This document shows, one piece after another, positions 13,213 to 59,100 of a stretch of DNA of 64,000 nucleotides (position 1 is the first letter of the stretch; every line of letters starts with the position of its first letter). Source of the stretch: Apostichopus japonicus (taxonomy: Eukaryota; Echinodermata; Holothuroidea; Aspidochirotida; Stichopodidae); assembly GCF_037975245.1 (NCBI RefSeq), contig NC_092578.1, forward strand, positions 5,745,001 to 5,809,000, read 5' to 3'. The notes under the pieces were generated by a model. It did not search any database and was not told the DNA's origin. It was given only the letters and a program-made list of their open reading frames with translations. The position numbers and the translations under genes are program-made.

Positions 13213-16200
13213 CTGATAAGAGAAAAGTTAAACTTGCATTAAACATGTAATGTGATATCGGTTATTCCGATATAATCAATGACTCTAAACAAAATTACCC
13301 ATAGGTGGATGCCGGCAGCAGTGAAGTTCAGCCATCTTACAGTCATCAGTATTGGTCTTAAATGCGATAAAATTCAAATAATGGCCAAGCATGCTCCAAC
13401 TTCATCAACAGATCAAGCTTTCACTAAGACCCTCAAAATATTGTTCCTCACTGAAGCATTCAATTGTCTCAATTCAAACCCTCAATGCCAATATCAATAT
13501 CAATGTCAATAATATAACTGATACAGAACCACCAGGAAGGAAATCTTGAACCCTTTAGCAGTTTTTAAGATGCTCAAATTTGGTGTCAATACTGATGACC
13601 TTGAAAGTGACGAGTTGACTTGTTTACATTTACCTTAATTTCAGAAGCTGAACTTAAGCAATTAATTCCGTTCATTACAATGAAATATGGATAAACATTG
13701 AAGAATGAAGTGGCTTTCTTTTGTATGATATTCAACAGTATAATGGCGCTATTGACGTTTTTCATTTCGATGAGAATCGTAACCGTTGTAGTAATGCAGG
13801 CGGATGAGTGTGCGTGTGCGTGTGTGTGTGTGTATGTGTAACACGCCCTGCCTTGTAAACACGGTATCTCAAGAGGTCAACGGTCATTTTTGGTCACCTG
13901 GGGTCAAATTGTGTAAACCTTATAAACACGATATCTCAAGAAGAGAAGCTTGGACCAACCTCATATGCAGTATGTAGATGTGACACATTGAGTTCAAGAT
14001 CCCTATTGTTTTTTAGTGGAGGTCAAATGTCATTTGGGGTCACCTGGGGTCAATTTGCAAACCTTGTAAACACGATATCTCAAGAGGAGAAGCTTGGACC
14101 AATCTCATATTTAGTATGTAGTTGTGATACGTTAAGTATAAGAAGCTTATTGTTTTTGGTGGAGGTCAAATGTCATTTTTGGAGTCACCAGGGGTCAAAG
14201 TGTGGAAACCTTGTTTATAATCTACCGTATCTCCCACCGACCAGCCTGCTAGATATGTGCGTTACGCCTCATTAGAATATGGGAGACTGTTGGGCAATTG
14301 GAAATTAGCTTAAGAGCATCCGTAGATATGAATCAAGAAGTCTCGACCAAATCTCCATGGACTTAAGTGTGCATGTCGCTAACTTACATCGCTGCATATA
14401 TGCCTGTGCACAAAGTTGTCTAATGAAACGTACTGTTTGTACATGCTTAATACATTGGAATGGACGATATCATTGGTGAATAATCGGTAATATATCTTTG
14501 CTTCCGTTGTTGAAGTTTTCCGTCGTATTTTGCAATTGTCGAGATTCAGTGCCAAATAAAATTCAGGTTTGGATGTAGTAACGTTGAGAAAAACACCAGG
14601 CGCCGTTTACGAAATTAACTGTCGCCTAGTTAAATGTTTTAGAGGCAAACCAGACGAAAAAAAAATTGGGGACCAGGGGATTAAATTCGCCCGGCGCCTG
14701 CTTAATTAACCCTTTGGCCTTGCAGTGTGTAAGCAGCAGAAAGTAATTTTTGTTAGACTCATTTACATCAACTCCGAGGAATATTTTGTACAAGAACCTT
14801 TATATCAATGGAAAGGGTAATAATTGTTCCTTTCATATCTGATTTGTTTCACTATTTGTGGGCTAATTATGTATGCAAAGATGCAAATTACCAATAGTAA
14901 TAAGCATTTTGTTTTTGGTGTAAAATAGTATTATCTAAAATATTTCCTATCATTTGAGGCTTAAATTGTGGAAATTGGTTGAAGAATAACCAAGACACAA
15001 TGATTGTCACAAGAACTGCAGATACACCCTTTCCCTGGGACCTACCTAATATACAGTACATAAACAATGCATGTTTATACAATACACTATATACAAGAAC
15101 ATCACCGTACCTGCATTGTCCAAATCAAGGGATTAGCGGCGCTATGCCGATATTCATTGCTTTACTTTTGTAATGACGCCTGTAAAGAACATATTTGTTA
15201 AATTTTTGAAAAGGGGTTTAGGGTGCGCGTGATATGATTTTTTTTTAATCAATGAAGAGTTTTTCAACTTTTTTTTCGGTTTTTGGACAGGTTTTTGACG
15301 ATGATAATTCAAATGTCCTATATAGCCCTGATCTTTTCATGGTAGTTTTTTATGTGTTGGGCTTGTTCTAGAACTTTGAAGGTGCTGGCCTGTTTCTAAG
15401 TGGAGCCTAGATTTTGTTGAAAAGAAATGGTCAAAATGTAGAATTTTCACACTTTTGGAATGAAAACAGAATTTGTACCAAAAGTTGGGAAATAAACATC
15501 AATAGCACCCCCCCCCCCTTCTTAAAATTTAATGTACTTTTGAATAGATCTGTCTTTCAGCTTTATTCTAACACTCAAACCAAGCTTATAGCTAGAAGCT
15601 TCGGTTGGGAAGATACATATTCTTCAACGTGTTAAGTTTCTTGAGGCATAATCTGCCCAGAAAACGGTTAATGTACGGCTTGTATGTGTACCACATTGAG
15701 TACAAGGATAGTTTCCATGTCAGTCTTTATGTCTGTCAATGTGAAGATTGTCTGTCACATCTCAACGCTTTTTGCTGTATACTACTTAGATTGAAGTATG
15801 TTGTTCACCCCGGGCTATACACTACAGCCTAGTGTGTCACATTCGTATAAGATTATCATGTAGCATCACTGCAGTTTTCCTGTCTGGTTTGTATAAGCGT
15901 TATCATGAAGCCAAATAACCGAATTGTTTTTTTTTCCACTCTTGTATGTTCTTTGTCAACACCACCGTGCAGAAGCAGATGGACAATTTGTGCAACGTTA
16001 AATAACTGTAAATACCCAGAGATAAAAAGAATCAACCGGCCAATGGAAATGTAGAAGGTTGGTTTACTTTTTTTTAGTATTTCCCCTCAATGAAATCCTC
16101 AACCCTGCCCCATGATGACCATTGAAGATTATCGACTATTTTCGAGCCATCCGTTTTCAATGAGTGCTCAGAAGAAAATTACGAGGCGTGCACATGCCGC

Positions 16201-21638: not shown

Positions 21639-24600
21639 ATGTTTGACCCGTACTTTCGAGAGCGTTTAGCCAGACAATATTCAGAAGTAAGGGATCGTCC
21701 CCTGTTACCTTCCAGGAATGAACCTGAAAGTCAGAATTACAATTACAGCGACAGACCAAGCTATCCGAAACTACATGATGGAACTGCTGGGAATGATAAT
21801 TGGAAAGGTAATAATCAACAGCCACGGTTGCTTTAAATGCTGTCTGGATAAACTTGAATCTTAATTGACAATGAATCAATAATAAACAAAAAATGGTACA
21901 ATAATGAAGATAATTTTGTCACAATTTAGTAATTTATTACTATGGAGCTCTTCTTCCTATGTCAGTAAAAAAAATACATGTTGGAAAGAGGAGTGAAAAT
22001 GCTAGGCCTGATATGTGACTCTGATATCGCTCGTATAGAAAAACTATGGAGATTTATCTGGACACATTAAATGGTCTGGAGGCTGTCCAGTCAGTAAGAA
22101 AGTTTGGATAACAAAGTATTCTGTACTTCACCATAGTGTCAAGTTTGGCAGTGTTTGTGTCCTTTCATATGAATGTACACACAGACCACTGTTTTAATAC
22201 TTAGGGGAAATATAGGGCATTTGAATTTATAGCTTAGATCATCATGGGGGGGGTGGGAAGAAAAGAAGATAGAAACCAGGTTGTTGTTGTTGTTGCCATG
22301 ACAAAAGTCATTGCAATAGTTGGTAGACGGCATTAGTGGTGCAATTATCTAGTAAGTGTACATGCGCATATTTCAATAAATTTCAAACGGTTACTTCTAT
22401 ATTGAAACATAATGACAAAAGGAAGATGTTCTTACTAAGAACATTATTGCTTGATTAAAACTGACAAACAAGCATATCTACTTGTACAAATTTCCAGGAA
22501 AGACATCTAGAGTGTCAGGCAGAATGCAACTTTTTGAGGGGATTTTTTCTTTCATTTTTCTTCTTCTTCTTGTCACATATTCTGTTCCATACTTAAACTT
22601 ATATACAATGTACAGTAGGTCATTAGTTTGATTAGTCAAATTTCTTTGGAAATAGTTTGACAATTTTTTCCTCATTGTTACATGTCCTAATCAATGCTAC
22701 GAGGCAAAAATTTTGCGAGAAATGAAATGATGAGGATTTAATCTACCCCAGAATTATTACTTGCCCCCAAATTAAGGATCATTTGGTGAGGAACTTAAGG
22801 GGGTCGTCATCTCCTGGAGAATTGCAATCTTACTGTATAATAAATTGCCAGAAAAGACAGTATACAGGGATGTAAGTCTTCCGTATTTTTACGGAAATCC
22901 GGTTTTTTTTTTAATTCCAATAAGTCTTCCGTATTTTTACGGAAATCCGTTTTTTTTTAAATTCCAATAAAGTTCCACAAAATTGTTCGAATATCAAAGA
23001 CACAACGCGGCAAAAATGCCTGGCCCGTTGCAGCAAGCTAACTTCAATTTTCACTCATCGATCACTCAAAGTACCACTTCCAGTTTCGCATCATCGCATT
23101 GCACTGTACAACATTGTGCCATGTGAATATCGTTGCGTACGTGCGAACTTCAAATCGCTATAGCTCATTTCTGTCGTTGAAAAACCTTGCCTAATTCATG
23201 TTGATTGGACTGCTAATTAATATTTTCGTAACTGCTGGTTCTCGACATAAGTTTTTGAATTAACGCTTGTGATATTTGTGAGCGGCGGAAATCTATGGGA
23301 TACGCATATGAAAGTCGATATTTGTGATCGCATTCGAATGTGAGACTGTTTTTTTATTCCGTAGTTCGCTGCGACGTATTCGTGACTTTGAGCTAGCCTA
23401 ACATAACGATAGTGTGTAAGTAGTAAGAACTAGGGGTAGGATGTGTTAGCGCTAATACTTCTAAGCTAGCCTAACATACAGTAACGATAGTGTGTAAGTA
23501 GTCAGAGCTAGGAGTAGGATGTGTTAGGACGGCATTCACCTGGGGTCTCCGAATATTTTTCCGGTTTTTTTTTGGGGCTGCACTTACATCCCTGAGTATA
23601 TATAACAGTTAATTTTTTTTTTTTTTTTTTTATACACAAGAACCATTGTGTTTTATTAAGAGACAAATTTAACAGACATTAAAACAGCTACAGTAAATTG
23701 TTCCCTGGATGTACGTACAACTGATTCGACTAACATGGCACAAGTCTAATCGGTTTTCCTTTATGCATCTTCTTTTTTTTTTAAATATATTTAATTTTAG
23801 ATGACATGAGCATAGGAGATGGTCTTTGGAGCAGAGGAAGAGAAAGTTTTGGAGGTGGTAGCAGCTATGATGGATTCAGAGGTGGATTTTACAGTGAAAG
23901 CAGTGCCAATGGAACTGGGATTGGTGCTAACGGAGGGCGTGGTGCTAACCGAGGGCGTGGTGCTAACCGAGGGTATGGATCCGGTCTGGAAAGAGGAACC
24001 TTCAGAGGAAGGGGTACCAACAGAGGAAGGGGTACCAACAGAGGAGGAGGTACCAACAGAGGAGGAGGTACTGGCAGAGGAGGGGTTACTGGCAGAGGAG
24101 GGGGTACTGGCAGAGGAGGGGGTACTGGCAGAGGAGGGGTTACTGGCAGAGGGGGTGGATCCAATCGAGGAGGCTGGACAAAGAGAGGTGTTGAAAGTGG
24201 TAGAGGAAGTGGCTTTGGAAGAGGTGGTGGACCAAACCGGGGAGGAAAGATCAAAGATGACAGAAGCCAGGCAGTTGGCAGTCAAGGAGGTGTATCTTCC
24301 GAAGCAAACGACCCAAATTATTGGTATTGTTCGGTAAGCTGTGAAGTTTGTGTGCTTGCTTTTCTAGGCTAGGGTTGAGATGGGGGTTTAATTGGCCAAA
24401 TTTTTGTTGTTAAAGCAGTATGGTTTTTAGAGCTGTTCATTTAATGTTTAAAACCGGTGATGATATTTAGTCTTTCAATGATAGTAATCATTATCAATTG
24501 TTAGCAGTTACCATGTTAAGGGGGATTGAATAGATTTCTATCACTGTAGTATCGTGCCATCACCTAAATCTTTATCAACTATATGACATATTAAACATAG

Positions 24601-27600: not shown

Positions 27601-30600
27601 GATCTGAGTCATTATGATACTATAATACGCATAACAATGCTTCGTAAAAGATCAAGTTCATAGTGTATTATTGTACTGTCATGCATACACCAACTTCACC
27701 AAAGTCATGTGGCTTGTGTCTGTTTCATAATTCAGTTATTTATCACATGCACGGTACTACTATGGCAACATATGCATATGGAACACGAAAAGAGTTTGTC
27801 GATAGGTACGGGTTTTGTACATTACTAAATTATATGATATATCAGATTTTAGTTCAACAAAAAGGACTCTAGTTTTGACTTTCAGAAACCTCTCACGAAC
27901 TCCCTGGGATGGACTCACGCACCCCCTGGGGGTTCATGCATCCCAGTTAGGGAACCCCTGCTCTGGTCCATTCAAACTTCAGCTATGGTAGTAATGTTGC
28001 TTTTGTTTTGTTGTTTTTTCTACCTTGACTTTTCACAGCTTTGCAATGTGTCTACAAATAGTTCAGAACAGCTGGAGTTCCATTATCAGAGCAAACAACA
28101 TCAATTCGTGAGTTAACTTTTGGGAAATTGAAACATCCAATACTGTTTTGCAACTCCCAATTTTGTTTTTGTTTTTTTGTGCTGTCTCTTAATATCTATG
28201 ACACTTCAAATCAGTATCAAATGTCATTTATGTGATCTGCCCAAAATTTATTGACAAACTCAAACATCTCTGCTTGATTTGTCATTGTATGGAGAACTCA
28301 TTCAACTATTTCATGAATTGTCCATATATATGTGCAAGTCTAGTCTCTTCATCAACTATTCATTGATATGGACAATTTTACCACAATATTTCCATACATT
28401 TATAACCAGATTTGTATAAATCTCTCCCACGTTTTCCAGATGTAATGTAGTCCAATATTTACGATCAAACCATATTTCTGTCCATTCATTTTCCATACAT
28501 ATTGACATTCGATGGGACCTTTCCATATATGGGCAAATCATCTCTCCATCAACCTTCCATATGTATGGACAACTCAATCACACAACTCATACAGCTTTAT
28601 ACCTCTGACAGTTCAATCGGTTGCCCATGACTTTGCCACATAACACGAGCAATTACACATTTCCTTTAATGTATCGCCATGATTTTATCCATGTACAATT
28701 CAAAACTCTGCTTTTATATGTCCATGTGTTTTCACAAATCACCATCTTTCCATCACTTTCACATATATATATGGTCCACATCATAAGAACTTTAAATGAT
28801 TTGCTATTTTGTTTGGGAAAAGAATGTCTTTCCATGACTATTTCATACATGGACAGAATCATCCATGATTTTCCACATGCATACCCATACGCACAATTAT
28901 TGCCTATTCGTGTCTTTGTTATAATATATATGTATGGACGAATGTGTATCACTACATGGAATTTCCATATATATTTTCTGTATGGTCTATTCATGTTTTT
29001 TTTTCTCATTTTTCCATACATGTGGACAAATGATGCATGAGAAAGTAATATATATGATATTTTTTTTTCAACTAAGAGTTGATAGATGATACTTGATCAG
29101 ACAAATCCCATATGATCCAAAAATACGATGACATGGACTCATCCTTGATTTACATAGATTTGATCATTCATTAACAAGTCAACTGATTGCGTGTGATAGT
29201 GGAATAAATTCCAATACAATTGTGATTTATTTCTATACTTAATGTGCATGATGCAACTTAGTGATTCGCAAATGATTCAATTGCTTCATAAATACTCATG
29301 CATGAATATTCATGTCATGAATATTCATGACATCAATATGCATATATTGTACAGTCTTGGTAATAACCATTAGATGGTCCAAGGTCAGACAATCCTTCTG
29401 ATCTGAAGATTGGAATGCATTCAACATCAGTGGAATACAATTCATCACAATTGCTACTTGTTTCCAAGTTAATGTGCATATTGTACCTAACCAACAAAGA
29501 AAATGATTATTCTTTGCATGAATATGCATATTTCACTTCATAAATCTAAAAAATCAATTTAGTGTCTGTTCAAGTAAATATGCATATATTGCACTCTACA
29601 GGGATGTAAGTCTTCCGGATTTTTACGGAAATCCGGTTTTTTTTTTAATTCCAATAAGTCTTCCGTATTTTTACGGAAATCCGTTTTTTTTTAAATTCCA
29701 ATAAAGTTCCACAAATTTGTTCGAATATCAAAGACACAACGCGGCAAAAATGCCTGGCCCGTTGTAGCAAGCTAACTTCAATTTTCACTCATCGATCACT
29801 CAAAATACCATTTCCAGTTTCGCATCATCGCATTGCACTGTACAACATTGTGCCATGTGAATATCGTTGCGTACGTGCGAACTTCAAATCGCTATAGCTC
29901 ATTTCTGTCGTTGAAAAACCTTGCCTAATTCATGTTGATTGGACTGCTAATTAATATCTTCGTAACTGCTGGTGCTCGACATAAGTTTTGGAATTAACGC
30001 TTGTGATATTTGTGAGCGGCGGAAATCTACGGGATACGCAAATGAAAGTCGATATTTGTGATCGCATTCGAATGTGAGACTGTTTTTTATTCCGTAGTTC
30101 GCTGCGACGTATTCGTAACTTTGAGCTAGCCTAACATAACGATAGTGTGTAAGTAGTAAGAACTAGGGGTAAGATGTGTTAGCGCTAATACTTCTGAGCT
30201 AGCCTAACATAACGATAGTGTGTAAGTAGTCAGAGCTAGGAGTAGGATGTGTTAGGACGGCATTCACCTGGGATCTCCGAATATTTTTTCCGGTTTTTTT
30301 TTTGGGCTGCACTTACATCCCTGACTCTAACACAAGAGAAAATTTTTTGGTATTTTCTCTACAGGAATAGGCGTAATAAATACACTTTGAAAATAACAAA
30401 ATCATTTTTTTTTTGGTTTATACAAGTATATGCATATCGACCTCAGCAATGAAAAATGCAATTTTTGGTTGTTTCCACTGTGATACAAAAGGTAATTATT
30501 GTTCTCTGTTTCTACAAGATGTATGCAACCAAGAAAACAACCCTTTTGTTTTGTACACATTATATATATGCATATTGTTTCACTTAAAAAATGACAACAT

Positions 30601-33900: not shown

Positions 33901-36900
33901 CTGGTTTCGGTTTAAATGTTATAAGACTTCAGGGTAGAAGCTGTTCTCACCGCAAGTTAATACTTTTGTGGTGACAGCACAGAGCCTTGCACCGGTCAAT
34001 GAGGTGAATCTGCAAACAGCTACATGTAAGAGGGGGTGGGGACTAGGGGTGGAAGGGGAATGGTGGGGAGAGGGGAGGGGATTTGGAATCGAATGCAGAA
34101 GTACCCATTTATAACATAAGCAAAGTAGTCATTTTTGGTCAAAACTCCTGTCAAAGCAAGTAATGCTACCACCTTAAATCAGAAAACCAATGGTTTTTGC
34201 CCTATAAATTCAAGTTTGTAGAACATTGCTCATTTCTTTGATATGTCATCGCCTGGGTGAGATTCTTGTATCTTCGTATTTTGGGGGGTCGGGATGAGAC
34301 TTTTGGGGGGGGGGGGGACTTTGATAGGACAGTGTTAATTTGCATACAACTTTATGCAGGTCCATTCGACCATCACAGATGGAGAACCTTACTCGTCTGT
34401 TTGCTTTTCACTGTAGTCCAACATCGGGACTTTCCTCTATTAAGCTGAACAGTGTCTAGACAATAGTAGTGTTTACTAGCTTTTTTAACAAATATTCCTT
34501 TTATATATTATGTCAAATTTATTACAAGTAGAGATGTGAAGGTGCTCTCATAGAGGGGAAACGTTTTTTCTATCTTTTCTTCTTCAATGAATTATTTTAT
34601 TCTTCAACGAATTATGAAGCCCAATATGTACATGAGATAAAATGTGAATTTGGATGCCTGATATTGTAAAAATGTTCTACTTTCACTGATTCAATGGTTG
34701 GTGACCATGTGTACAAATCTTCTCGATATTATATTGACATTAACTCTGCTGGCTGGAACAAGAAGAGGGTGGATGTTTAGAAGGGTGGAAGATTAATAGG
34801 GGGAGGGGGGAGCGGTGGTTGGAATAGTTTCTCATTGAACCTGTTGTAAGTCGATAATATGTGGCATGCATATATATATTCTACAGTTATTCTCGTAGCT
34901 GTATTTGATAATCTCCATTATTTTAATTTCCATGTTGTTTCTCCAGGACCAAACAAGCCAGCCGTTTCCCAGAAGTTTAAGGCGCCGGTGATTCCACAAA
35001 TCAAAGAGTGCCCTTCTGCACTTCTTGGTAAGTATTATGAAACAATGTAAATGGAGAGGAATGAATTTCCTTCATTCCTCTGATACCCGTCTCCGATACA
35101 TACTCACTCCAATCTAACCTGGCCTACAAACAACTAGTGACATTCTTGCACTGCCCCTAACCTCCCTCCCCCCCCCCACATGACCCTACAGGTTGTAACA
35201 AGCTGGCTTTTCTCTTCCTTCAAATCTTATATAAAATATTAGTATTTCAAGAAAGGAAAGATATGTAAAGTGAAAACACAAGTATTGAATGTGGAAATAT
35301 AGATTGGTACTAGCTATTTCACCGATCGTACTTTCGCAGAGACAACTTTTGTCATTTATGTTATCTATCAACAGGATTGGAGTATTTAACGGAATACCAA
35401 CACGTCGAACCTGTCCAGGAACCTCATTACGAATGTGGAGTTTGCAATCTAGTCCTCATTGCAGGGAATGTTATCCCCCATTTCTTAGGCTTCAAACATT
35501 GCCTGAAATTCATCGTAAGCATCCCACGTTTCTAAACTTTTTTACTGTGATTAAATGCATTAAACGCAAAGGAATGATTGATCTGGTACCACACCGGAAA
35601 ATACTTTGCCAAAATGGTCAACATTGATGGACTAGTCCAGTTATTGATAGGGGCTGTGGTTTTACAGTTTCCATAGTACCGGTGCTGTGGCAGAGTGGAT
35701 AAAAGCGGTGGCATTTGAAGCAATGAGGCTTAGCAATGGGAAGGTTCCGGGTTTGATACCCGGCCGGGTCATAGTAAGGTTGATTTTTCATCCAAAAGCA
35801 ATCTAAAGTTTTCACATCTGAAATGACTTTCTAAAACGATTCCAAGTTTGAGTTAAAATGTTGAATTGGAAGCCACCCCGATGTGTAAGTTGTAATTCAT
35901 AAGCCCTTGCAGGCTTCTCCCACAATTGTTTTCGCTTTAGCATCGTAAAAATAACTGCTGATTAAATATTAAACCTTATATGAGAACTTTTAGAGCCTTC
36001 AACACTACTACACAAGGTTTGAACACTAAATTTATTAACTCAAATTGTTTTCAACACAAAAGTTTTTTAAAATACTGTTTGCTTGAAGATTTCAGTTGTG
36101 CAACTTTTATACCCAGGCATTGGAAAATTTTAAATTAAAGGTATAAATTGTGAGAGAGGAGGTATAAATAATGTAGTAGCAATGGGAGTGGAAAAGCATG
36201 ACCATTCTTGGTCTTTTCTAGCATATTTGTTGCTTCCAAGTTGAGAACATGCAGTGGCTGATAATTTAGCAATTTTACAGTTTTTCCTTGGAATAACCTG
36301 ACGATTTTACTCTTCAGGATCTTCTGACTTATTCTGTATTTGTTGGTAACACTTAATATCTCTCAACATCAAATGCTAGTTTTACCGATATTTCAACAAT
36401 CCTGCAGCTGGTTATTCAAACAATGTAATGTTTTCTCTTCAAGGTTTTCTATCTAATAATATATTTTAGTGGTAAAACTGAAACCCTTGATTAAAGGTCT
36501 ATCTAAAACATTCAATTAAATGCTAGCATGGCTGATGATGTTTCAGCAATTTTGCAGCTAGTCCTCCCTGAAAGAACCTGATTTGGAAGGATTATCTGCC
36601 TTACGAAAGCCCATGTCTGAAATGCATCTGGTATGAAAGTTATCTTGTGAAAGAGCGTGAATGTACTGTATATAAACCCTCGCTATCATATGGTAATGCT
36701 TGTTGACCTTCAACATCTGTTCTGTCTTCAACGTATCGACTCTTTACTCAGATTTTCTGCAAACATAGGTATACTAAAAATAACAATCTGACAGTTGGTG
36801 GTACATTTAAAACTATTTTAATCTGATTTGCTGTGACGACACGATATTTTGTCATTTTCCGAAGACCGAGCAGTGCCGATGATATAGTCCCTTTCCCACT

Positions 36901-39900
36901 TTTTTTTTTTTCAAAACGGCGAAATCATTTCCGTTGCAGAAAAAGTACCGCCCTCTAGTATACGAAGTTGAACTGGAGGGGCTGGAGGCGCAGAACGATC
37001 CTAACACCAGAGAAGACGAGAAGAGGGATCAAGAGAAGGCAGCGTATCAGAGTATGCAGGTGAAAGTGAAGGAACTAGCCAAGTCGTTAGAGGCACAAGA
37101 AGGGAGACAATCTGTCAAGACGGTCATCCTGAGAGGACAACCTCGTCCAACTCAGACTAAACCCGGACAGGGATTTCTGGTCGGTGAGTGAAATGCTACT
37201 GTTTACTTTGAGAGCGTGGTGGCCATTTGGCTAAGGCGTCGGACTTGTGATCCAAGGATTGCTGGTTCGATTCCTGCCTAGTTCATTATGTTGTGTCCTT
37301 GGGCAAGATGCTCTATCTCACTTGCCTCTCTCCACCCAAGGGTTAAATGGGTACCTGTGAGGGTAACTTGTCATTGGGTGCAGTATATAACTGCTGCCGA
37401 CTGGGAGGGATTGTCTCTGGGACAGATTATCATTGACCAGTGGTAATATAACGTCTGTGAAGCGCTTTGAGACCTATCACTGGTATTAAGCGCTATATGA
37501 AAAGCTAATGTTATTATTATTATTGTACTGATCGTTGTTGAGATGCCACTAACTTCAGCCTGTGTCAGTCGGAAAAAAAGAAATATTCTGGTGCAAAATA
37601 ATGTGATGCTTTTTAAATGACAGGAAGTCGAATCATTTCCGCATGAATTCGTTCTAATAGCCCAATTTTGTTGTCTGATTCTTAACCTCGAGTCATGGTT
37701 ATTTGAGGGTGAAGTTTGACTATTATAGAATCAAAATAATTTTTTTTTTTTAAATCATTTGCCACAACAGTGTTGATCTCTAAGCTGTTGTCAGGTGTAT
37801 TTATAAAAAAGTTTCCAAACTATGCAGAAAAGTTTAATATTCGCAACTACATATGATATTATGGTGGCTTTTATTTTTCACATGAAAAATTGGCAAAATT
37901 TACAGCAAGTATCTTCAGCACATGTGCACATTGTTATCAATCCATATTTCTATAGGAACCCCATCGAATGAACCACGTCAACCTAGGAATCATCAAGCAG
38001 CTCTGTCAGATATGATGGCCAAGGTTCCACCACAAATACCAAAGTAAGTTTGTAGTAATAACCTTCAAGTTCTCAGTAGTAATATGCTCCAAGCTCATCA
38101 CTAATCTTTTGGGGTTTTTATTCTGTCAAAGTTTTCAACAGTGTGCCTGTTCTTCCAAGGTATTAAAATTCTCAGGCAATAATAAGGAAGTTGGGGGGAG
38201 GGGGGGTGGGGGATGGATGAAGGGCAACAATTATCCCAGCAGGTGCCAATTAAGGTCACTCTAATTTTCTCCCAAGTGTCCCATCCTGTTTTTCTTTATT
38301 CAGCATAACTTTGATATTTTGGGCTAATATGGGAGAAATTTCACCCAAACAATGATAGCCTTAAAGCATTTACCGTGATATATTTGAACAATGTAATCTT
38401 GAGTGGGTCAGGCGGTTTATAGGCCCCGGCTTTAGTTTTTGAGCCAGTCTGTTGAAGACTTGATCAAGTCCATTTTTAATTCGGAGCCTGCTTGATACCA
38501 TGCAGTGAAGGCATGGTACAAACAATTCATTGAGATAACACTTTCTTCAACATCGCTGCTCAAGCTGATCCAGTTTTCAAGGGTGATAAGACATCTTAGA
38601 TGTTGAGTTGATTTATGTACATGTCTGTGTGTGTTTATGTAGTGCTGGGCTTTTGTCAGTATGATACAAATCGTGCAGTTTTCCACGAGTAGCTTCCCTT
38701 GGCTGTGTAATAACATGAGAGGTAATTGAAGAGGTAAATTGAAGTCCTCCCCTGCCACTTTCTGGTTTGTACTGAATGAAATTGAGGTGTGGTCCCTGGT
38801 TACATGGTATGCAAGCACAGTGGCTGTGGACTGACACCCCCTCCCCTCCTCACCCTCCCCTCCCCCGGGTCCCCCGCACCAAAGTAAAGAAAAGCCACTA
38901 ACTAAGGGCTGGATAGCTCAGTTGGCAGAGCATGGGGCTTGTAACCCTCAGGTCACTGGTGCAAATCCTGCTCTAGCCAAACAAAAATTCTCTTTTCTTT
39001 TTAAATCATGATATTCTTCTTTCTCTGTACCAGCAAAACATTCACTGATGATGATGTCAGTCCTTCCCTACTGTCAGATGAGATGATCGAAAAGGAGTAC
39101 CAAAGACGGTTTGGGTTGAAAAGAGCAGCACAAGATAGTCAGGTAGAACCTAGTGGCTGGTGAATTCTAACTTCAACTTTTGCCTCACTTTCAATACCCT
39201 ACAAAGACGGAAAGTGTCCAGTTTTTGGTTCCGTGACTTAGTAGCCATCAGAACCTTTGCATTCAAGTTGGCGTATGTGTGTGTATGTGATGCCCTAGCT
39301 TGTAAACAGGGTATCCCAAGAAGGAAATAAGTGATTGATGTAATACTAGGTATATATATATTGGTCAGGGTCAGTAGATGATCTCTATTGTTTGTGGTGG
39401 GGCTAACATGCATATTAATGAGTGGGCGGGCGTAATGTAAAATTCTAAAAATGTAATGGTGATGTAAGTACAGAGTATGTACATGTTCTTTGCAACAATA
39501 ACTTTGACATCATTAGTATTTCATTAGTGGGTGGGGCTTAATGGGAATCATGGAAAACGGCATGTAAACACGATATATCAACAACCACAAGTTGAGTCAA
39601 TGTCATCCACAACTTCAAATCAAATTGTTTCCAAACTTGGAATACAGTTGTTGGTTAGTGGTACATGTAGTCCTAAATTTGCTGGGACCGCCTTGGCCCC
39701 AAAAGGTTCTGGGCACATTTCTTTCTGGGTTGGCCCAAATTTTTTGGGCTCAATTTTGGGGGGCAAATATGGTTTTGAGTGAGTTTGTTTGGGCCAAAAA
39801 GTTTTAGGACCATTCAGGTGCAAAATTTTATGATACTATGTCACTAAATAGACTTTGTCAACATGATCACTGATTCCTGGTACCTTCCTATATATGTTGC

Positions 39901-45928: not shown

Positions 45929-47149
45929 TCATCTCCTTTCTGGCATCTTGACATTATATTCTTCATCTGTTTCTATGCCCACCTCTTCCTAAAACAGATT
46001 AAAGAAATACTATTGTAAATATATAGAGATATAGTTCAGTATCTAATAGGCATGTACTTTAGCTGATCACAATCAAGGGAATTATTCACGGAAAAAAATC
46101 ACAAACTAGGATACAAACACCCTTTACTCCATTTCATTTTTTTCTTCTCAAAATAAACTGATTATTATTTCGTGTGGTACTCTCATGAATTTGAATGGGG
46201 GATAAAATGCATCAAAGAGACCTACTGTACCTGATTGTACAAAACTTCAGTGGAAGTTTGTGCACCTGTCCATGTTCTGTTTACTACTATACTACTATAA
46301 TCTATATACTATAATAGTTCACCTGTGTCCATGGTAACAGACAACTGCCAAATTCTCCTCCCCCATTCCACCCTACCTTGGGAAACCCCCCTACCTGGTG
46401 AAACCCCCCTACCTTGGGAAAAACCCCATCCAATTCCACCCTACCTTGGGAAACGACGCATAGTCTAACCAGCTGCCTCACTAGACTTACCATCAAGTCC
46501 TTCTTCTTCTTTGGATAACCTTCCAAGATAGCATCAAGTATGTCTGTCGCCTGAAAATCGACAACATTATCTGCAGTTTTATTTTCATTTGAAGTTATAT
46601 CAAGATTGATGCAGTAATGCACCATTCGATTGTAAGAGAGAGACTGTTGCAGTTTCCTTTTCAATGAGAGCATGGAATATGTCTGCTTCCAAATGACAGT
46701 TTTGTAAAAATTTGTCATTAATAGTTTATTATTAGTAATTTACCCAACAAAGATTATTTGCAACCACTTTGAAATGTTTTTTATGTATTTCTCTTGGGGT
46801 GGGGTGGGGGGGTGGGGAGGGGGTGAGTTTGTTTTTGTATTTTAATTTTGTTATAGTTACCAGCAAACTTCATCTGCAAAGATATTAATAACAGTAATAT
46901 ATTATTACTTGGAACCATGCTTAATCCTCCTCCATTAAACCAAATATATATATTTCTCCCGTTCAGTTTCACCATATTAAACAAGACTTTTCTACCCACA
47001 CGAGGCGCTCACTCACTAACCAGGCGTTTTCTCTTTCTCCACTCTTTCACATATTTCTCGTGCTTGGAGTAAATCCGATTCTTCTCTTCTGGAGTGGTGT
47101 GGTTTGTAGCAGCTTTGATCATCTGCAGTTTTCCTTGTTTCTTCTCGCA
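45929..47149 (-). CDS. PSMC3IP: HOP2 exons 6 to 8 (C-terminal region)
   Basis: 47149-47021 encodes CEKKQGKLQMIKAATNHTTP and on to EWRKRKRL. 46550-46491 encodes ATDILDAILEGYPKKKKDLM. 45988-45929 encodes EEVGIETDEEYNVKMPERR and TGA. These are the most conserved parts of the family and make the assignment firm. Confidence 0.92.
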
Positions 47150-50100
47150 CTGAAATGTTAAATCAATTTAATGTGATCACTAGTTGTAATCAGTTAAAAA
47201 AATTCTGATGAGCATGAGGTTTTTGTATTGGGGGTTTTCAACTTTTCTTTTAATATTTCTTCCTGTACAGATGGTACAGTATTTGTATTTTGTATCCTAC
47301 ATATATTCTTCCGCAGTTGTAGTCGATGCAATGACCGTTCCTAGTTCCTACTTAGTCATGCAGTCAAGCTTTGTTCCTGTTAAAAGAGCACAAACCTAAC
47401 CACTAGCGCGAGGCGATGCTTTCTATGATCAAGTTCAGTCTAAATTTACCTGTTCCTTGATGTCAAACAGGCTCGGAAGGAGCCTGAAAAAAAAGACAGC
47501 ACCCGATCACAAGCACTTTCAAACATGTTGTACATTCATATAATAGTAAAACCACTAATTCTTGTATGAATTGATCACATTGTTGAGGACTACCTGTGCA
47601 CCTGATTCTCAGCAGGTAAGAATTTGTTATGTACGGTTTCATTCACATGTCTGCTAGTATACACAGGTGGTGTTTATTCTGTGCGTTAATTCCTTGAGAT
47701 TTGATTCCTTTAAGTTTCTTACCTCCTCTGTAACATTCTGGAGTTGTTTCTTGGCATCTTCTGTTGTCAGGGCAGAGGTGAGGGAACTTAATTCTAGAGA
47801 AGATGAAGAACGGAGAGGAAGAAAACTTTGTCACTTTGTTCTCTGGACGAGTTGGTGACCTAGTAACGCAACTTCCAGGTTGGACGTGAAACTGCCACAA
47901 ATGAATTCTGTGTTACGGAGGGTTCTCGATAAGTAGCCTGTCGGTCAAATCCGGCCCGTGGGGATTTCAATCTGGTCCATAACTCTTATACTTACATGGT
48001 ATGCAGAGTCTTAGGACTTCTTTCATCAGCGCCCAACCAGCCGACCCTGCACAATGCTAGGTCCACAGTAGGTATAGTAAGATTTTTTGTTCTCTCTGGA
48101 CCACCAACCAATGTATTTCTCTGGCCCTCATATGAAACTAATTTGAGGATCCCTGCTGTATTACCCCAAGAAAGCAATCCCCTTATAACCTTGTTGTGTT
48201 CATGTAAGACTGGCTTACAGAAACGCGTAGTTTCTTCCTAAGTGGTAGATTTGGAAGGAGGTGTAAGAGGGCGGTGCCCAGGGAGCGAGGGCGCAGTGCT
48301 AAAACGTTTCCAGTGTGTAGTTAGGTAAATGGGAAAGTGCAGATGTGGAGTGGGAGACAGGTAAGAGAGGAGCCAAGTAAATTTTATGTTTTAAATGGAA
48401 ATGGCCTTTTACAGCAATATTTTCCAACAACTTTCAAAATGTCCATCTTTTCTATGAACAAGATTACACAGCAGACCAACTGGGAAAGTTACACTTACCT
48501 TTTTCTAACTGCTTACAAGAAGTAACGGTCAAGTTGAGAGTGTTCTTAACTTCACCGATTTTCGCATCCATTTCAGATAACTCCTTCTCACTGACCTCTG
48601 GGAAGTTACTCTACAAACGTAGGGGGAGAAAAACTTGTAAGAAATTAGCCATATGAATTAAACTTTTTCAAAACTACTGAAAAACCAATACATCGATCAT
48701 GAACCGCAGACACATAAAACAAACATAGCCATATAATTATATTTAATCTCTAATTATATCACTTATGAACATTTCATGTAATATTTTGGAATTTTTGTAA
48801 AAATCAATCCTTTGTAACTCATTTCTCCACCAAAATAGTAAGGATTTGTAAGAAGGAATGTTCAAATTGTGATACTGACTTGTCAACCAAGATCAAGATC
48901 AAACTAGGTAAAATAAAATTCATAAAGTAAAAATTCATACATTTTCAATTTTATATAATACACATTCTCGCTGTAATGGAAGGAAACTGCAATTGAAACA
49001 AAAAAGGGAGCTAGCGTTCTAGGCTTTATTTATACAATGGAAAATATGCCTCAAAAGGTGACAAGTGATCATCAAACTATGCTAACAGTAAAGTCAAGGA
49101 GTCATGTCAAGGAGTGTTAGCTCAGTGGTTAAAGCCGGTGCCTTTCAATCATAAGTTCCCGAGTTTGAGTCACTCCAAGATTAATGTATGTCGTCCAGTT
49201 ACAGAGTTGTTTACAATTGACAATTCATAATCATGGGTCAACTTGCGGCTTTGATAAGCCAATGAGGTTTCTTCGCGAGTTCCTGCTTGCAGGGGGATCT
49301 TAAATACATACATACATATACATAAGTACTAACCTGGTCAGCTACATACACTTTTTGCTTTCCGTAGACTTTTTCAATAATCTTGCCATCTTTAGCCAGC
49401 TCTTCGAGAACCCTGACAACCATCTGAAATGCAATGGAAAGAGAAGAAACATTTTTAAGTGATTTTGGAGATAAGCTGCTATTTATGAGAAATGCTCACA
49501 ATCTGGAAGAAAAGCTTTGCAATCAAAACTTATGACAATGTTACAGCAACAATATAGTTTTTCTGAAGGTTCACTTAGTACCTTTAAACTTATACAATGC
49601 AACATTTAGTTCTGAAAATACTGACAGGGATAAAATAACAGCTTAGTGTAAAACACTATAAATAACAGGGTACATAGGAAGGGTAACAGGGAATGTTGTT
49701 GACGTTTTGGTAACCAGGCTGAAGTAGAGATGGTATAAACTGTGAATCAAATGAAGCCTATTTCGTGTCTATTTAGAATCACATTATCACAGAGTACAGT
49801 TCTTTCTTCATAATTTCACTGTTTTTGTTTTCATCAAAACTCCAGTTTCATACTTTCATCAATTCTTTACAACTTTGTATTTCAAGGCCAGTTTATCATC
49901 CAGTACAAAACCCCGAAATGTGACTATTAAATGTTTTTGTTTATTACAAATAATGTTGTATAACAGTTAGTCATGTCTGGAAGGATTTTATGTATCATAC
50001 CATAACAATGTTGAAGATTTGAGCTTCTGAGAATCTAAGAAAAACTCACTAACAAAATAAAAAATATTTAATGACAGTCAGAAAAAGGAACATCCTTAAA

Positions 50101-53100
50101 GGAATATACATAGTAGGGTGTCCACATATAAAGCAGTTTAGTTTTTCCACAGTTTTGAGTTTTCCAACTCACTACGATTTCAATTTATATATATTATATA
50201 TACTCATTTGCCTTTTGTCATTTACCTCCATTTCATAATTAATATATACAGTATATATACATTAATATTGTAAATATTTTGGAAATGCATCATATATATA
50301 TGTCCACCATATTTTATTTTCTAGAGCTCTACATTTACCTTGAACAAAAAAGGCCAAGTTCAGCTATATGACTGTGTGTGGTAACTTTTGCATAACTTAG
50401 CCTATGTTTGATCATAATTTAAGTTTGACTAAATATAACACATACAGGAAGTGCTTCATCTTTTGCCTAACTTTCAAAACGAATCGTATTAGTCACATAA
50501 CAAATGGATTTGACATTAAAATTGTTCAGGAATATTTATCTCTGAAGACTATTACAGAGTTAGATAACTTGAAACAGCAGGCAGGATTAATATATGCTAA
50601 CTTTATTTCTCCTGTTTACATCCCCAGGTCAGTATTTTGAAGGTTGAACTCTGCGTCCCCGGCTAATTAACTTCCCTACCTGCGGGCTGCCACTGTTTAT
50701 CCTCATAAACAAGTTCAAGGGGAGACAGGGTAGTTCCTTTCTCTGCTAATTTCCAGCGGGAAATTAGTTTAACGAGCTCTCTCATTAGGGAATGTAAACC
50801 CAATGTGTCTTCTTACATGTATGCTTTGATCAAACTTTGGTGGAAAAGAAATGTCCCCTTTGTTAAAGGTACATGTATGGAAACAAAGACAATGGAAGGT
50901 AATTCCTAAGTCACATCACACAATAAAAGTATATCAAAGCAATATCAGCACCAATGTTCAAAATTTTGTTGTTTTTACTTTAGTTTTATTTTTTTCATAT
51001 TTCTGCGGCTTACCCGGAATGAATATGGTCATAACCTTGATCTTGAAATGTTCAAGTGGGTGAAACCTTGACATAAGTAAATGGCAATTTAGTAGCAGGT
51101 AGAAGGTACTATAACTTTCAGGCCAAGAGGGTGGCTAAAATTGCATAATGCAGAGTTGTTAAGGCTGAATCTCATAGACTTAAATACTTATTAACTTGGG
51201 ACTTCAATATTCCTTTGGGGATGTTGCTCATCAATAGGTGCTGGAAGAACAACTGCCCACCACATACCATCCCACCCCCCCCCCACCCCATCCCCTCAAC
51301 CAACTAAATTCTCCCTTTCCTTGCTTTTTTATATGGATTTTACCTCTTTTTTCATATATGACATCATAAAGATATATATGCTGAATTCCCAGCCTTATCA
51401 TGATCCAATTTATCTTTTTTGCACATAGTATCTTTAATATCAAGTTAAATTAATTGACAAAGTGGTTTGATATTATTTGAGGCTAAGTTTACAAACCTTA
51501 ATCACAGTGATTTTAGGACTCTTCCCTAGCATACAAAAGACTGTTCTACTTAAAAATTTCAAGTCAAATAAATGCAATTTTTTTTGTAGAAGTTCAGTTA
51601 ACATTGATATTATTTTGCAAGCTACTCATACAGCACTGAGTCCAATGAATGTTTGGAAGTTTTTTTTCTTACTGGCAAATGTTGAAATTCAATGGCATTT
51701 AGCTACAAAAGGCATGACTTTTGAGGCCTCTGTTCTCACCTAGTGGCATGAAAATCTCATGTAACTTCTTAGGCAGAGGGGCTTGGGAAATGGAGTGATG
51801 AAATATGCATACATGTGTACATGCACAGCGGAAATCTGATTAAAAATAAATAATAATTAATTGTGAATATTTGAATACAAAATCAAAAGTTACAAGTGCA
51901 CACTACTGTAGAGTCAGGACTCATCACTTTAAGCATATAATTTTACGAGACGGCAATGATATTCTTCAGGAAGACCTTGTAACAGTACATCAATTGGTGT
52001 GGGAAACTACCTACTCGTAAACGTCAAATAAGACGTAAAGGATATGTCGCAATTTAGAGAGAGAAACAGCACCTCCGTGAGGGAATACAATCTGTTTCCA
52101 TCGAGTAATTAATGCAACCAACTTTGAAGGGATTAGATCACATGTCAAGCCCACTCTATCTGAGAAAGCCGAAGAGTAGGATGTAAGAGAGATAAGCTGG
52201 GGATGAGAAGGGGTAAGGCTAGGGTAGGAATACCATGGGGAATAGGGTATCATGTGAAGTGGACACAAGCACAGCCTAATTGCCGCTGCCCCCCTACCCC
52301 CCCCCCCCCCCCATGACTTATCATGTTGTTACTTTGTTATATACAGTATAACAAGGCCCTAACAACATGATCAAATATTTTTAGATCTACTTAGGTGTAA
52401 TTCCATTTAGAATTTATAAATAAACCAATGACCTTAATTGTGATGTTTGTTCCTGATATTCATCTGATAGCCACAGTTCAGTCATCGTGCATTACTCAGT
52501 TGGAACTACTGTGCCAGTGTAACGTGATAATCAACAGGAGAAAAATGCAAGTCTTCTTACCTAACTTTTTTATTTCCCCAACACTACACAAGTTTTCTTG
52601 AACTTGCCCAAATTGTTGATAAGTTTTGCCTAAATTGTTTGATAAAAGAACAAATAAAAATGTGCTACCTGTAGTCTGTCTCATTTATTATTACCGAGCA
52701 AATACGTACACGATAAATGTGCATCAATAAATGTACTTTACAAGACAGAATGAGAATGCTGATGTTGTGAGGAGACAAGTGAGGTGAGGAATCAAAGTGG
52801 ATCCCTAACACCCTGCTACCAAAAATTACAAAAATAAATTTTTATATCGTATTGATATTTACAGTTTTCATATATCGTCAAATTCAAATTTTACAAATAC
52901 ATTTTTAAAACTAAATGTCATTTCTAACTCATATCTGTCATTACAGTCTCATATACAAAGGTAGAACTCTGTGATGCTACATGGCATCAAGCATGCACTT
53001 CTTGGGAAACTTGACCATTTCATCATAAAAATTAAACACATTCTATTTATCAAGTAGTTTATTTTCAGAAGCAATATTCTCCTGTCAAATTAGATTGTAA

Positions 53101-56100
53101 ACTCTGTAGACAACAGCAAAACTAATTTGTTCTGAAGCCATTTCTAATTTTGAGACTGACAGGACATTCACCGTTGCTGAAGCTCGAGAGGAAGAAAGCC
53201 ATTTGCGGGGTTAATTGTCTCAGCCTTGATTTACTCTATCCTAGGACAAGCTCGATCTGGACGGTCTAAACAGCAACAGAGTAACTACCAGCATCCTCCC
53301 AGAACAGTTGGAACCAAAATGTAGTTTACAAAAAAAACCATCTCTGCTTTGATTCGATCTGGATTTAACGCAAGAGTAGAGAAGTTGCATTCAAGGGAGA
53401 GGAAACATTCTGTGAACATTTTTCAACTAGAGTTGGAACCAATTCAACAATTGTTGAATTCAACAATTCAACATATTGTTGAACCAATGAGTTAGAACCA
53501 AATGGACCATATTAAGGCAAGGAATTTCACAACAACTGGATCGCCTGTGCAAAATTTGTATTGATATGCCTCAACAGCGTGCTATATTTTGTCAGACAAC
53601 CAGCCCAGCGATATTTCTTGAAAGTTTCATTCCTCGGGGATTCTACTACAACTTAAATACATACCAGCAATGAAGGCTAAAATGTGTAAGTCATAGCATT
53701 AGCAAGGAATTAATGCTAACTCTCTATGCTTTTCTATCTTACGAAATACCAAAAGTTGTGATGGCTCCTTAATTCTCTCGGGATTTTTGTAAAATTCTTT
53801 CGATATGATAATACTAGCTAAAACTAAATCATATATGAAAATACCAAAAGAATTCAGGATTGTAAGATGGAGTTTCTTTCATGAAATTTGTAGAATTTGA
53901 ACCCAATTTGACCAAATATCAACACCTCAACAGATGAATGGACTAGTGAGACATTTCAATCAAAGGGAAGTTTCAACTTTCTCTATAGTAAAACCCCAAA
54001 AACACTCTCACAGTAACAAAATTCCTTCTCAAAATGAATTTGAAACAACTTGGAAGAGGGAGGAGCTTAGTGTGCCTGGTCATCATTGCCTGTACACTTA
54101 CTGTGACCTCTTCACAACAATCTTTGTTGATCGAACCGAAAGAGACTATCGCTGTTCGTGGAGAGAACATAACACTGACTTGTCATTTTGCGACGCTGAA
54201 TACTTCGCAGAGCGACGACAGGTTCTGGTGGCTACGTCCGGATCATAACTTCAGGTTCGTGCGGAACGAAGCCGTCCTTCTCGGAAGCTTACAGAGAGAG
54301 AGGTACTCTGTTCGACTTGATCGTGATGCCGGTACTTATTCGTTGACGATCAGGAAAGTGCAGCTATTGGACGGAGGTAAGTTCATGTGTTCTTATCGGA
54401 GGGACAGGGCCGTCGACACCTTCTCCTCGGAAACGGCCACCATGACGGTGTTATCCCCGCCCCCCGGTGGATACCCCAGGTGTCCCTACTATACTAAATC
54501 AAATTTGATTCTGTCGCCGTCAAAGAGGATAGCGTTGACTTGTCCAAAGGTAGACTCGTGGAATGTCGAGCCCGATACGAGGCAGAACCAGAGAAGTAAA
54601 AACGTATATTTCAGCTGGGGTGTACTGGAGGGCTTCCTTTTACAAAATGGGACCAGTTTGCTATCATATTCATCCAGAGCACCCTCAGGGGAAGGAACAT
54701 TCTGCATGACTGATCATCCGATTCTGGGGCGTTACCCCGACAGGTGTAGTTTAGTGCATGACGCAGAATCAGCGGTGGTGCTCATCCAACCGGCCGGTGT
54801 TCACATCAGGGTCGGCGAAAACATGACTTTTGCTTGCAAAGTCAACAGTGCCATAGAGGGGGTAAGGTACGAATGGATAATCCCTTCGAATCTACCGTCA
54901 GAGAGAATTCACATAAATCAAGAAGGGAGCAGAATAACTGTGATCAACGTACAGGAGACCGAGCAGAAGATTAACCCTCAGAGCATCGGTTGCACTGTAA
55001 CCCTGGAGGATGGAAAGCAGATAAATGCCTTAGCAAATGTGACAGTCATACCCCTCCACGGCAGGCTTCACGTACAGAGCGACCGTAACGTAGAGAACGT
55101 CGACCTTCTGGCAAAAGGGGAGGATCGTGTGATACCCGGCAGACCCACCGGAGATGAAGAAGCCCCTCAAAAGTCACCCAAAAACTCCTTCAAAGAATTT
55201 GTGACCAATCCCGAGAAGATGGCGATTGTCTTCGGTCCGTCTTTAGCGGTCATCATTTTCTTTGTATTATTCTACGCACTGTTGAGGTTCGCAGTTAATA
55301 AGAAGGTGACCGTGGTTCAACCGCCTCGAATCGTCACCACTTCTCCAGATGCTGTCAGAAAGCAGTCTAACACCAGCAATCCAGAGACGGCCTTCCACGT
55401 CCCGGCCTTCTCCCGGAGCTACTCCGACGCCACTTCCTACCGCTTCAGTCGAAACTTTGACATCCACAACAGCTTCCAGGAGGGCGACATTCAAACTAAC
55501 ATGGACTGCGGTGAAAGGAACGTTCCCAACGTGCATCATTCTACGCCCCGTGCAGATCCTCGTATGAACGTGAGCATGCCCTCCCTACAATACAAATCCA
55601 ATACGCTACCGTCGAGTAAGAGTAAAAGGAGCCAGGATTTACCGCCTCCACCGAACTCTTTCATTGACCTACCACACGAAGTGGCCAAGAGTTCCTCCTA
55701 CTTAGAGCTGCCCTCTGTCGACTGGAGACCTAAAAGATCTGTCCATTTTGCAAAGACGCCACCGAAGCAAATGAAGAAGGTTAAGAAGTAAATCTGTTCA
55801 AATGTTTTGAAAATCTTGAAAATTGATTTAAAAAGCAGAAATGATGTTTTTAAATCATCATGGTGTGAAAACTTTGGTATTAAATTAATTTCCATCAAAA
55901 GAAACCTTGAGCAGACAACCGCTGCAAGTGGCACACATGACTTCATTGTATGAGAAATCCTATATTGAAACAGGAGGAAGTAATACAACATTGATGAATT
56001 TGTGAAATTAAAAAAGTCTAGTTTGAGAGATACATGGAGACTCAGCTTCAGACAGCTCTGTGAGCCTTGACTAGATTTGGAGAATATTTCTTTGTGTCTG

Positions 56101-59100
56101 AGATAAGCAATTTCAGCCTATTGACATTGGGGTATTCCACCATTAAATACTGCAATATAGTTACACTGTATATATATACTAAGGTGTCTTCCAAAATGAG
56201 GTTTGAAAATATTTTATATTTCTTGAAAACTTTCAACATATATAAGGCAAATTGTACAATACATGAAACTGTTTGTAGATGGTGATGTAAGTACTTTTAA
56301 GACAATGGTCTTAACAACTTTTCGGGGACATGTTTGAACAAATTTATTTTCAATGGCAACATGTGCCTTCCACATATATATTCCAAATTATCAAACTGGA
56401 AAAAACTGTTGTTTTCATGGTGTGCGATGGGTTTAACTTATTGCAAGAAAACTACAATAACTGTACTCTGCAGATCTGTGTTGTGAATATAAGACTTACA
56501 TAAATTGTGTACCATCATAAATTAAAGTGCTATCAATCTGTTCTTTAATGATACGTTTTCGGTACACAGTGACACTTTATTGGTTTTCTCACAAAAGGTA
56601 AATGTACACAGAGGTAAACATATGAATCATCTGTCATTGAAGGAAGTATCTTGTCCGGTCTTAGATTAATCTAGGTCACAACTCTGACTCTAATCAGGTC
56701 AATGGAATGAGTAGATACGGCTTTCACATGTATACGGCTTTCACAGCCAATCATGCTACATGTAACATAGAACCAATGATAACAAGTGACTACTACATGT
56801 ATGTTGGTTTGGTTGCTATGTAACCGTAGAATCATGCACTGCAATATATAGCACACATGTTCCTTTCAATAGTGAGATGTATTGTGGGGCCATGATCTAG
56901 CCATTTGTATAGCAACCAAACACACATGTACCAATTTTCTGTTGTTTTTTTCGTCTTCTTTCTTTGACATAAAATAGTTTAAAAGGTGTGGTATGTATAA
57001 CTGAAACATTTTTCATGAGACTAAAATCAGCTGAGAAATTATTGACAAAGTTTTTCCAGTACTTGGACAAAATTAATTTTAACATATTAAAAAAAGAAAA
57101 GTTTTTGTAAAGAGAAAGGCAAATGAAGTAAATACCTACAGTGTCTTCATTACCTGTACCTGTAAACTCATTTAGCACTTTGGGAAGTTTAAATCTCAGT
57201 AACAATAGGAGATACAGCTGTTACATTGCAAAACAGTAGTGTTGTACTCAAGTAGTTTTAACACTACTGTAAGAACCAAGTACTTCAATCAACCATAGCT
57301 CCAATAACCCTCTGTTTAATACACAAATTGATGAACAATCAAATTTTTATGATCACTGATTTTTGGAAAAGTTACCATATTTTAAAAACCACTCTCTGCT
57401 TCAGGGCACTCGACCATATGTTTGTGGACAGGCAAACAGTAGCCCATTTCTCTTTTTTTCTTCTTTTTTTTTTGGAAAAGGAGTCCGTTCAGAATCTTGA
57501 AAACTGTCTACCAGAGACTTTTACTTCCTATGCAAGCAAAATCATTGAGAATATGCTTCTGGATGCTGTCTATGATCACCTTAGTTCCAACACCATTTTT
57601 TCATAACGTGCAGTTTGATTTCATAGCAGTTCGATCCTGCAGTCCCAAACTTTAGGAAATGGTCAAACATTTATAGAAACTTAGTATGGGCTGTGATGTG
57701 CTTATCTAGATTACAGTCAAACTTTGGATTGTGTTGGAATGACACCAACGGTTAATTGAGAAGTTAGAGGTAGTTAGAGACTTGGAGTAAGAGGTATTAA
57801 CATTACCCCATGGGATACACAGTTCTACATGACAGAGAAACAGAGAGCAGAGTAGTTATTGAGGGAGTTTCTTCAGACTTGAAGGATGTAAGTATTAATT
57901 ATTTACCTTGAGGCAGTGTGTTAGACTTGGTTTATTGCTCATATACATAAATGATCTACCTAAGTGTGTCTCCTGTTGGATTAAATTATTCCCTGACGAT
58001 ACAAAGCGTTATTCCATATTCCATAATTAATGAAGGGCCAAACCGATGCCAAATCCTTCTGAGATGAAATAACCTTCTAGATATGTCAGAAATTTAGTGC
58101 CATCTTACTTTTACACAGTAGCTTAAAATCTGAATGCTTCACCTTGGGGAGAACTGTGCAAACATGGACAATTTCATTTCCATGAATAATTAAGTGATAC
58201 AAATTAGTCTTGCCTCAGTGATAAGTGAACGTGATAAGGGACTACCTTTGAAGTTCTCAAGTTCAATATGTAAATAAAAATATATATTTTTGTGACAAAC
58301 GGTGTGTGCCAATGCTATTCAAAACAGTCGGCACTATAAAACACATATTTTCTTGCATGAGTTATATGTTTCACATTCTGTTGCACTTACTCCTCTAGGC
58401 TGCACCATGCAATGGCTGCACTTGGAAGGGTTACATAATACATTGACATGCATAATGTCTAGGCTACACAATGTAATGGCATGCATAAGATATATATACA
58501 GCTGGATCTACAAAACAAAGGGCCAAAGGCATGTGTAAGGTGCAGTGTGCATATTATAGATTAAGTGTAGAACAATACATACTGATAGATACAGACAGAA
58601 ACCAAGGTAACCTTACAGAAGTATGTAAAGTATTCTAAAATTAATCCTGTGACTGCAGTACTTTAATACTGCATTCACTGATCTGCTGAAAGTTTGTTAA
58701 CTATCTATCAAAACTAGAGTCACATTTGCATAAAAAATCAAAGTACTTGAAACTATTCCACACTAGTACTGATATACTCACAGTTTTGCCAAATTCTTTG
58801 TGGAGGTTGTTGAAGACGTCACCTGCACTGTAAGGACGGTTCTGCTTGTTGAGGTAATCCAAGATGGCTGACCCAGCTGTTGGAACAATCAGCACTTACA
58901 AATGTTGATAGGGCAAGACAGTACGCAAACATAAACAATAGCCTAGAAAAGTTAAGTTTTGGGCGAAGTTTAATGTAACTTCACTTCTCTGAGAAAATAG
59001 CAAACATTGTCACCATCCTATGAGGCCTTTTACAAAGAAAAAAAATCTGCAGTTAGGTAGGGTTACTAAGGCCTATACCATAGTCTAGGATTGTGTTTTG

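Follow-up and report, generated by a model that had tools for sequence, protein, structure and literature searches.

Members of the Kirrel/Neph (IRM) family carry five immunoglobulin (Ig) domains and a C-terminal PDZ ligand. For echinoderm KirrelL, the earlier work cited is reportedly that of Ettensohn and Dey in 2017. The echinoderm gene kirrelL is described as encoding an Ig-domain transmembrane protein that the skeletogenic primary mesenchyme cells need for their fusion; it is said there to lack introns in every echinoderm examined, being single-exon in S. purpuratus, and retrotransposition is suggested as its origin (PMC8903837). Its upstream regions from six further species were tested in the same study (Khor and Ettensohn 2022, PMC8903837). 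In a brittle star, kirrelL is reported to be expressed in the dermal layer and the spines of regenerating arms (PMC7814545) and to require FGF signalling (PMC8180256).

Here we analyse a window of 64,000 nucleotides, the whole of one stretch of DNA from the holothurian Apostichopus japonicus. The gene at 54034-55791 is genuine: it encodes an immunoglobulin protein of the cell surface in a single exon and is nested antisense within an intron of HOP2, a gene of meiosis. It is probably the kirrelL of this species or a close relative, a reading to which we give a probability of about 0.6 and which rests on a gross architecture like that published for KirrelL.

A single-exon gene for an immunoglobulin-domain membrane protein

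The frame spans 585 codons on the forward strand, from ATG to TAA, intact and in one exon, just as the initial annotation had described it. Its open stretch begins at 53992, right after an in-frame stop, and 54034 is the first ATG within it. Under a base-composition model, the chance of 585 open codons per frame start is 4e-13 at the composition of the ORF and 2e-18 at that of the window. G+C content rises from 0.36 over the preceding 2 kb to 0.50 in the ORF and falls to 0.34 over the following 2 kb.

An earlier codon score was set aside because it was circular, its training set consisting partly of the 54034-55791 frame itself. The score retained was trained on the other genes in the window, with 1,881 windows as background. 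Of 12 sub-windows, 10 give the ORF's own frame the highest score of the six; no more than about two rise above the 99% level of the background, and the margin over background is small. The score thus lends mild support to the coding status of the ORF. The window holds no further copy of the protein, the sole other tblastn match having an E-value of 5. Searches for relatives among prokaryotic and viral contigs returned 589 and 22 pattern matches, respectively, with none confirmed in either; a blank is expected for such collections.

The gene and its protein are organized as follows.

54034-55791, forward strand: single-exon CDS of an Ig-domain type I transmembrane protein, probably KirrelL (ORF, Pfam, hydropathy)
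54034-54114, forward strand: signal peptide, residues about 1-27 (hydropathy peak at residues 6-24; putative cleavage site)
54133-54432, forward strand: D1, V-set Ig domain, residues 34-133 (Pfam V-set E 1.9e-11, above cut-off; C50 and C119 presumably paired)
54454-54801, forward strand: D2, divergent unit, residues 141-256, with cysteines 150, 170, 224 and 238 (spacing by eye; putative disulfides)
54760-55080, forward strand: D3, weak Ig_3/I-set domain within residues 243-349 (C268 and C320 presumably paired)
55219-55284, forward strand: transmembrane helix, residues about 396-417 (Kyte-Doolittle maximum 2.54)
55285-55788, forward strand: cytoplasmic tail of 168 residues with PPPPNSF, SSYLEL and a basic C-terminus (translation)
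55693-55710, forward strand: SSYLEL, residues 554-559 (fits the ITIM consensus (S/I/V/L)xYxx(I/V/L); its YLEL part fits the YxxPhi sorting motif)

Across the whole protein, hydropathy gives one signal-type segment and one strong transmembrane segment, which bears out the signal peptide and single membrane helix proposed at the outset. The Cys-paired Ig-like domains of that proposal hold in part: judging from sequence, one is secure, a second likely and the third open, with the cysteine pairing presumed. The secure one is the V-set domain D1. D3 is likely: when residues 243-349 are scanned alone, Ig_3 is matched at E 7e-4, under the curated Pfam cut-off, and NCAM comes top among solved chains at E 0.0027. 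D2 matches no Pfam family up to E 10, and its comparison with solved chains gave nothing convincing, the top match being an enzyme at E 0.039. By eye, the Cys/Trp spacing LTC...W...GTFC in D2 looks Ig-like, and the spacing of its cysteines would make an extra disulfide possible. Single-sequence AlphaFold2 prediction reached a mean pLDDT of 38.5 for the whole protein and 35.0 for residues 141-345, too low for a usable model. Pfam gave no match for the 168-residue tail, and the protein ends in KKVKK.

Nesting within a HOP2 intron

The host gene was located by tblastn with a human HOP2 protein sequence as query. Five minus-strand pieces, lying from 58.9 to 45.9 kb, were matched with E-values from 1e-12 to 1e-3.

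58782-58876, reverse strand: HOP2 exon (2 or later), AGSAILDYLNKQNRPYS... (tblastn 1e-7 and splice sites)
49424-58781, reverse strand: HOP2 intron (2 or later) of 9,358 bases, holding the ORF (donor GTGAGT at 58781, acceptor CAG ending at 49424)
49334-49423, reverse strand: next HOP2 exon after the 9,358-base intron (tblastn 8e-8 and splice sites)
48503-48607, reverse strand: probable HOP2 exon, matched part, weak by sequence (tblastn E 6.2 only; flanked by AG and gtaagt)
47012-47149, reverse strand: HOP2 coiled-coil exon, matched part, 3' limit uncertain (tblastn 1e-12)
46494-46550, reverse strand: HOP2 exon encoding ATDILDAILEGYPKKKK (tblastn 0.001; Pfam LZ3wCH 0.0073, below cut-off)
45938-45988, reverse strand: last coding exon of HOP2, matched part, EEVGIETDEEYNV... 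(tblastn 4e-4)

A coiled-coil piece at 47746-47666 on the reverse strand matched HOP2 at E 32 and was left out of the exon count. The ORF lies on the strand opposite to HOP2, 4,610 bases from one end of the intron and 2,990 from the other. The antisense arrangement and the intron size of 9.4 kb given in the initial annotation therefore stand, but its intron number can be stated only as 2 or later: exon 58782-58876 is preceded by a splice acceptor, which implies one or more further HOP2 exons upstream.

The kirrelL paper terms the flanks of the S. purpuratus gene 'intergenic', the terms HOP2 and PSMC3IP are both absent from its text, and the neighbouring genes are drawn in its Figure 1A (PMC8903837). 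In the literature searched, we found no account of PSMC3IP with a nested gene in an intron. Either the nesting is special to this lineage, or it is unannotated in S. purpuratus, or it appears only in that figure, or the ORF is another gene. The position inside HOP2 is possibly what is new here.

Identity of the nested gene

A search of solved chains with residues 28-172 yielded 141 distinct matches at E 0.05 or below, the best 60 of which were listed. Polymeric Ig receptor reached E 2e-8 over the whole chain, with no single stretch over the threshold alone, and TCR alpha 5.5e-7 in one stretch. SYG-1 (1e-4) and Roughest (0.0019), which we take to be invertebrate Kirrel-family proteins, both rank behind these two; Dpr2, presumably an adhesion protein like SYG-1, was matched at 1.3e-4. 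As a set, the matches do not single out Kirrel.

A V-set D1 whose top solved-chain matches, among those listed, are polymeric Ig receptor and TCR alpha would also suit a lineage-specific, intronless Ig receptor of immune cells, whose ITIM-like tail recruits SH2-domain phosphatases and damps activation. SSYLEL does fit the ITIM consensus, as first noted, but a match also turns up in 2,890 of 20,000 tails shuffled at constant composition (14%, about 1 in 7), and the motif is therefore not by itself evidence of an inhibitory receptor; we rejected it as a strong argument for one. The tail contains neither a second ITIM nor any ITSM. Beyond D1, D2 is without a Pfam match and D3 has only weak, general Ig matches. 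Immune receptor families are often clustered, and no related copies occur in the window. We consider such a receptor unlikely. For the remaining tail motifs, the same shuffling returned YxxPhi in 62% of tails, RVxF in 21%, PPxxF in 10% and the PPPP run, the rarest, in 1.6%; PPxxF, RVxF and PPPP are of weak or unclear meaning.

The initial annotation had offered an inhibitory-type or an adhesion receptor. With the inhibitory option hanging on one chance-prone motif, adhesion is the better of the two. An adhesion protein of the Ig superfamily other than KirrelL, retroposed independently and without an immune role, would accommodate the weak NCAM match of D3 (0.0027) as well as the Dpr2 (1.3e-4) and SYG-1 (1e-4) matches of residues 28-172. 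It calls for another intronless Ig transmembrane gene when the published one would do, and is in our judgement quite improbable. Within the literature searched, a limited library covered by titles and abstract openings, no echinoderm single-exon or ITIM-bearing Ig receptor besides kirrelL is named.

The best reading of the ORF thus appears to be a KirrelL-type adhesion and fusion protein rather than an undescribed inhibitory receptor. The initial description of the receptor as not yet described is probably wrong, because kirrelL, an intronless Ig transmembrane gene found across echinoderm classes, has been published (PMC8903837).

Echinoderm kirrelL has Alx1 and Ets1 inputs upstream of its start codon; a scan for such sites upstream of the ORF lends no support to the KirrelL identity. 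Ets-type MGGAAR sites number 2 in 2 kb (3.7 expected from shuffles) and 7 in 4.6 kb (7.9 expected), while TAATNNNATT or TAATNNGATTA is seen once in 2 kb (1.2 expected) and four times in 4.6 kb (2.9 expected). No Alx1 palindrome, in either arrangement, lies in the 2 kb upstream; since just 0.08, and so fewer than 0.1, would be expected by chance over that distance, its absence says little. One ATTANNNTAAT occurs downstream of the ORF, at 55879.

Proposed origin and role

The initial annotation had suggested retroposition or a lineage-specific family. Retroposition is also what has been suggested for kirrelL (PMC8903837), but no scars of it were found at this locus. A CDS without introns, as in the ORF, is a retrogene feature. 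Within the intron, no stretch of 9 or more A follows the ORF, and no target-site duplication was found, the tested flanks having only one 13-mer in common, which is AT-rich. Neither mark is expected to last in an old insertion, and their absence speaks neither for nor against an old retroposition. A non-functional recent retrocopy or a pseudogene in decay would likewise be intronless and sit in another gene's intron, but is highly improbable in view of the 585 intact codons, the lack of a 3' poly(A) run of 9 or more, the single shared flank 13-mer and an in-frame coding score that is best of six in 10 of 12 windows, if by a small margin over background.

For the probable kirrelL, we propose that a spliced mRNA of the Ig family was reverse-transcribed, and that the copy now lies antisense in the HOP2 intron. 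Insertion into a meiosis-active gene would fit retroposition in the germline. The gene would be driven by its own promoter within the 4.6 kb upstream. By analogy with the published gene, skeletogenic mesenchyme cells would display the protein on their filopodia, where the Ig domains would keep touching filopodia together; this adhesion would lead to membrane fusion into the syncytial cable in which calcite forms. Through its tail, the protein would link this contact with the cytoskeleton or with endocytosis.

The fuller proposal, that kirrelL was born by reverse transcription of a spliced Ig-family mRNA into HOP2 intron 2 in the ancestor of echinoderms and that the antisense nesting has been kept to this day, is tentative, and we hold it to be rather unlikely. 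If it is true, HOP2 is the place where a skeletogenic cell-fusion gene came into being, and the position would date kirrelL against other deuterostomes with an empty HOP2 intron. Should the gene simply be kirrelL, the result is mostly an annotation. Its position in HOP2 would then be a fixed landmark, by which the retrotransposition origin becomes testable through synteny among echinoderms, hemichordates and chordates, and the regulatory DNA of a skeletogenic gene would sit in the intron of a meiotic one.

Other features of the window

Several further features were recorded elsewhere in the window. At its edge, a 405-codon frame (3-1217, forward strand) is open and has a coding-like score; a single Pfam family, DUF2766, matches it within E 0.1, at 0.089 and below cut-off. 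On the reverse strand, 11585-13261 is an open stretch of 559 codons with coding-like composition; it matches no Pfam family to E 0.1, and solved structures gave no relative to E 0.01. By eye we take it to resemble the NXPE family.

RGG-type repeats at 23785-24369 (forward strand) are open in several frames and include an 18-base tandem unit at 24003-24152. Beyond them, at 24781, lies a weak zf-met zinc finger (E 0.011, below cut-off), and together the two perhaps belong to a gene for an RNA-binding protein. Separate tandem arrays at 22873-22970 and 29607-29704, about 6.7 kb apart, have a near-identical 48-base unit. An exon-like segment at 36883-37188 (forward strand) weakly matches Hus1, a DNA-damage checkpoint clamp protein (E 0.0019, below cut-off). 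Isolated Rfam tRNA matches lie at 38907-38979 and 37217-37280 (forward strand), the second barely above the gathering score; they are possibly a gene and its degenerate copy or a tRNA-derived element.

Comparison with known systems

With the vertebrate ITIM receptors, the ORF tail shares one match to (S/I/V/L)xYxx(I/V/L), but it differs from theirs in having no second ITIM and no ITSM, and its motif could have arisen by chance. Among those listed, the top matches of residues 28-172 are to polymeric Ig receptor and TCR V domains, whereas the likeness is confined to D1 and does not extend to D2. To the family of Kirrel, Neph, SYG-1 and Roughest the ORF is linked by the matches of residues 28-172 to SYG-1 and Roughest; unlike the IRM proteins, it has three Ig-like units at most instead of five, and its C-terminus, KKVKK, is no PDZ ligand. 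From echinoderm KirrelL it departs in its nesting within HOP2, which is absent from the text of the kirrelL paper (PMC8903837), and it resembles KirrelL both in its intronless CDS and in encoding an Ig-domain transmembrane protein.
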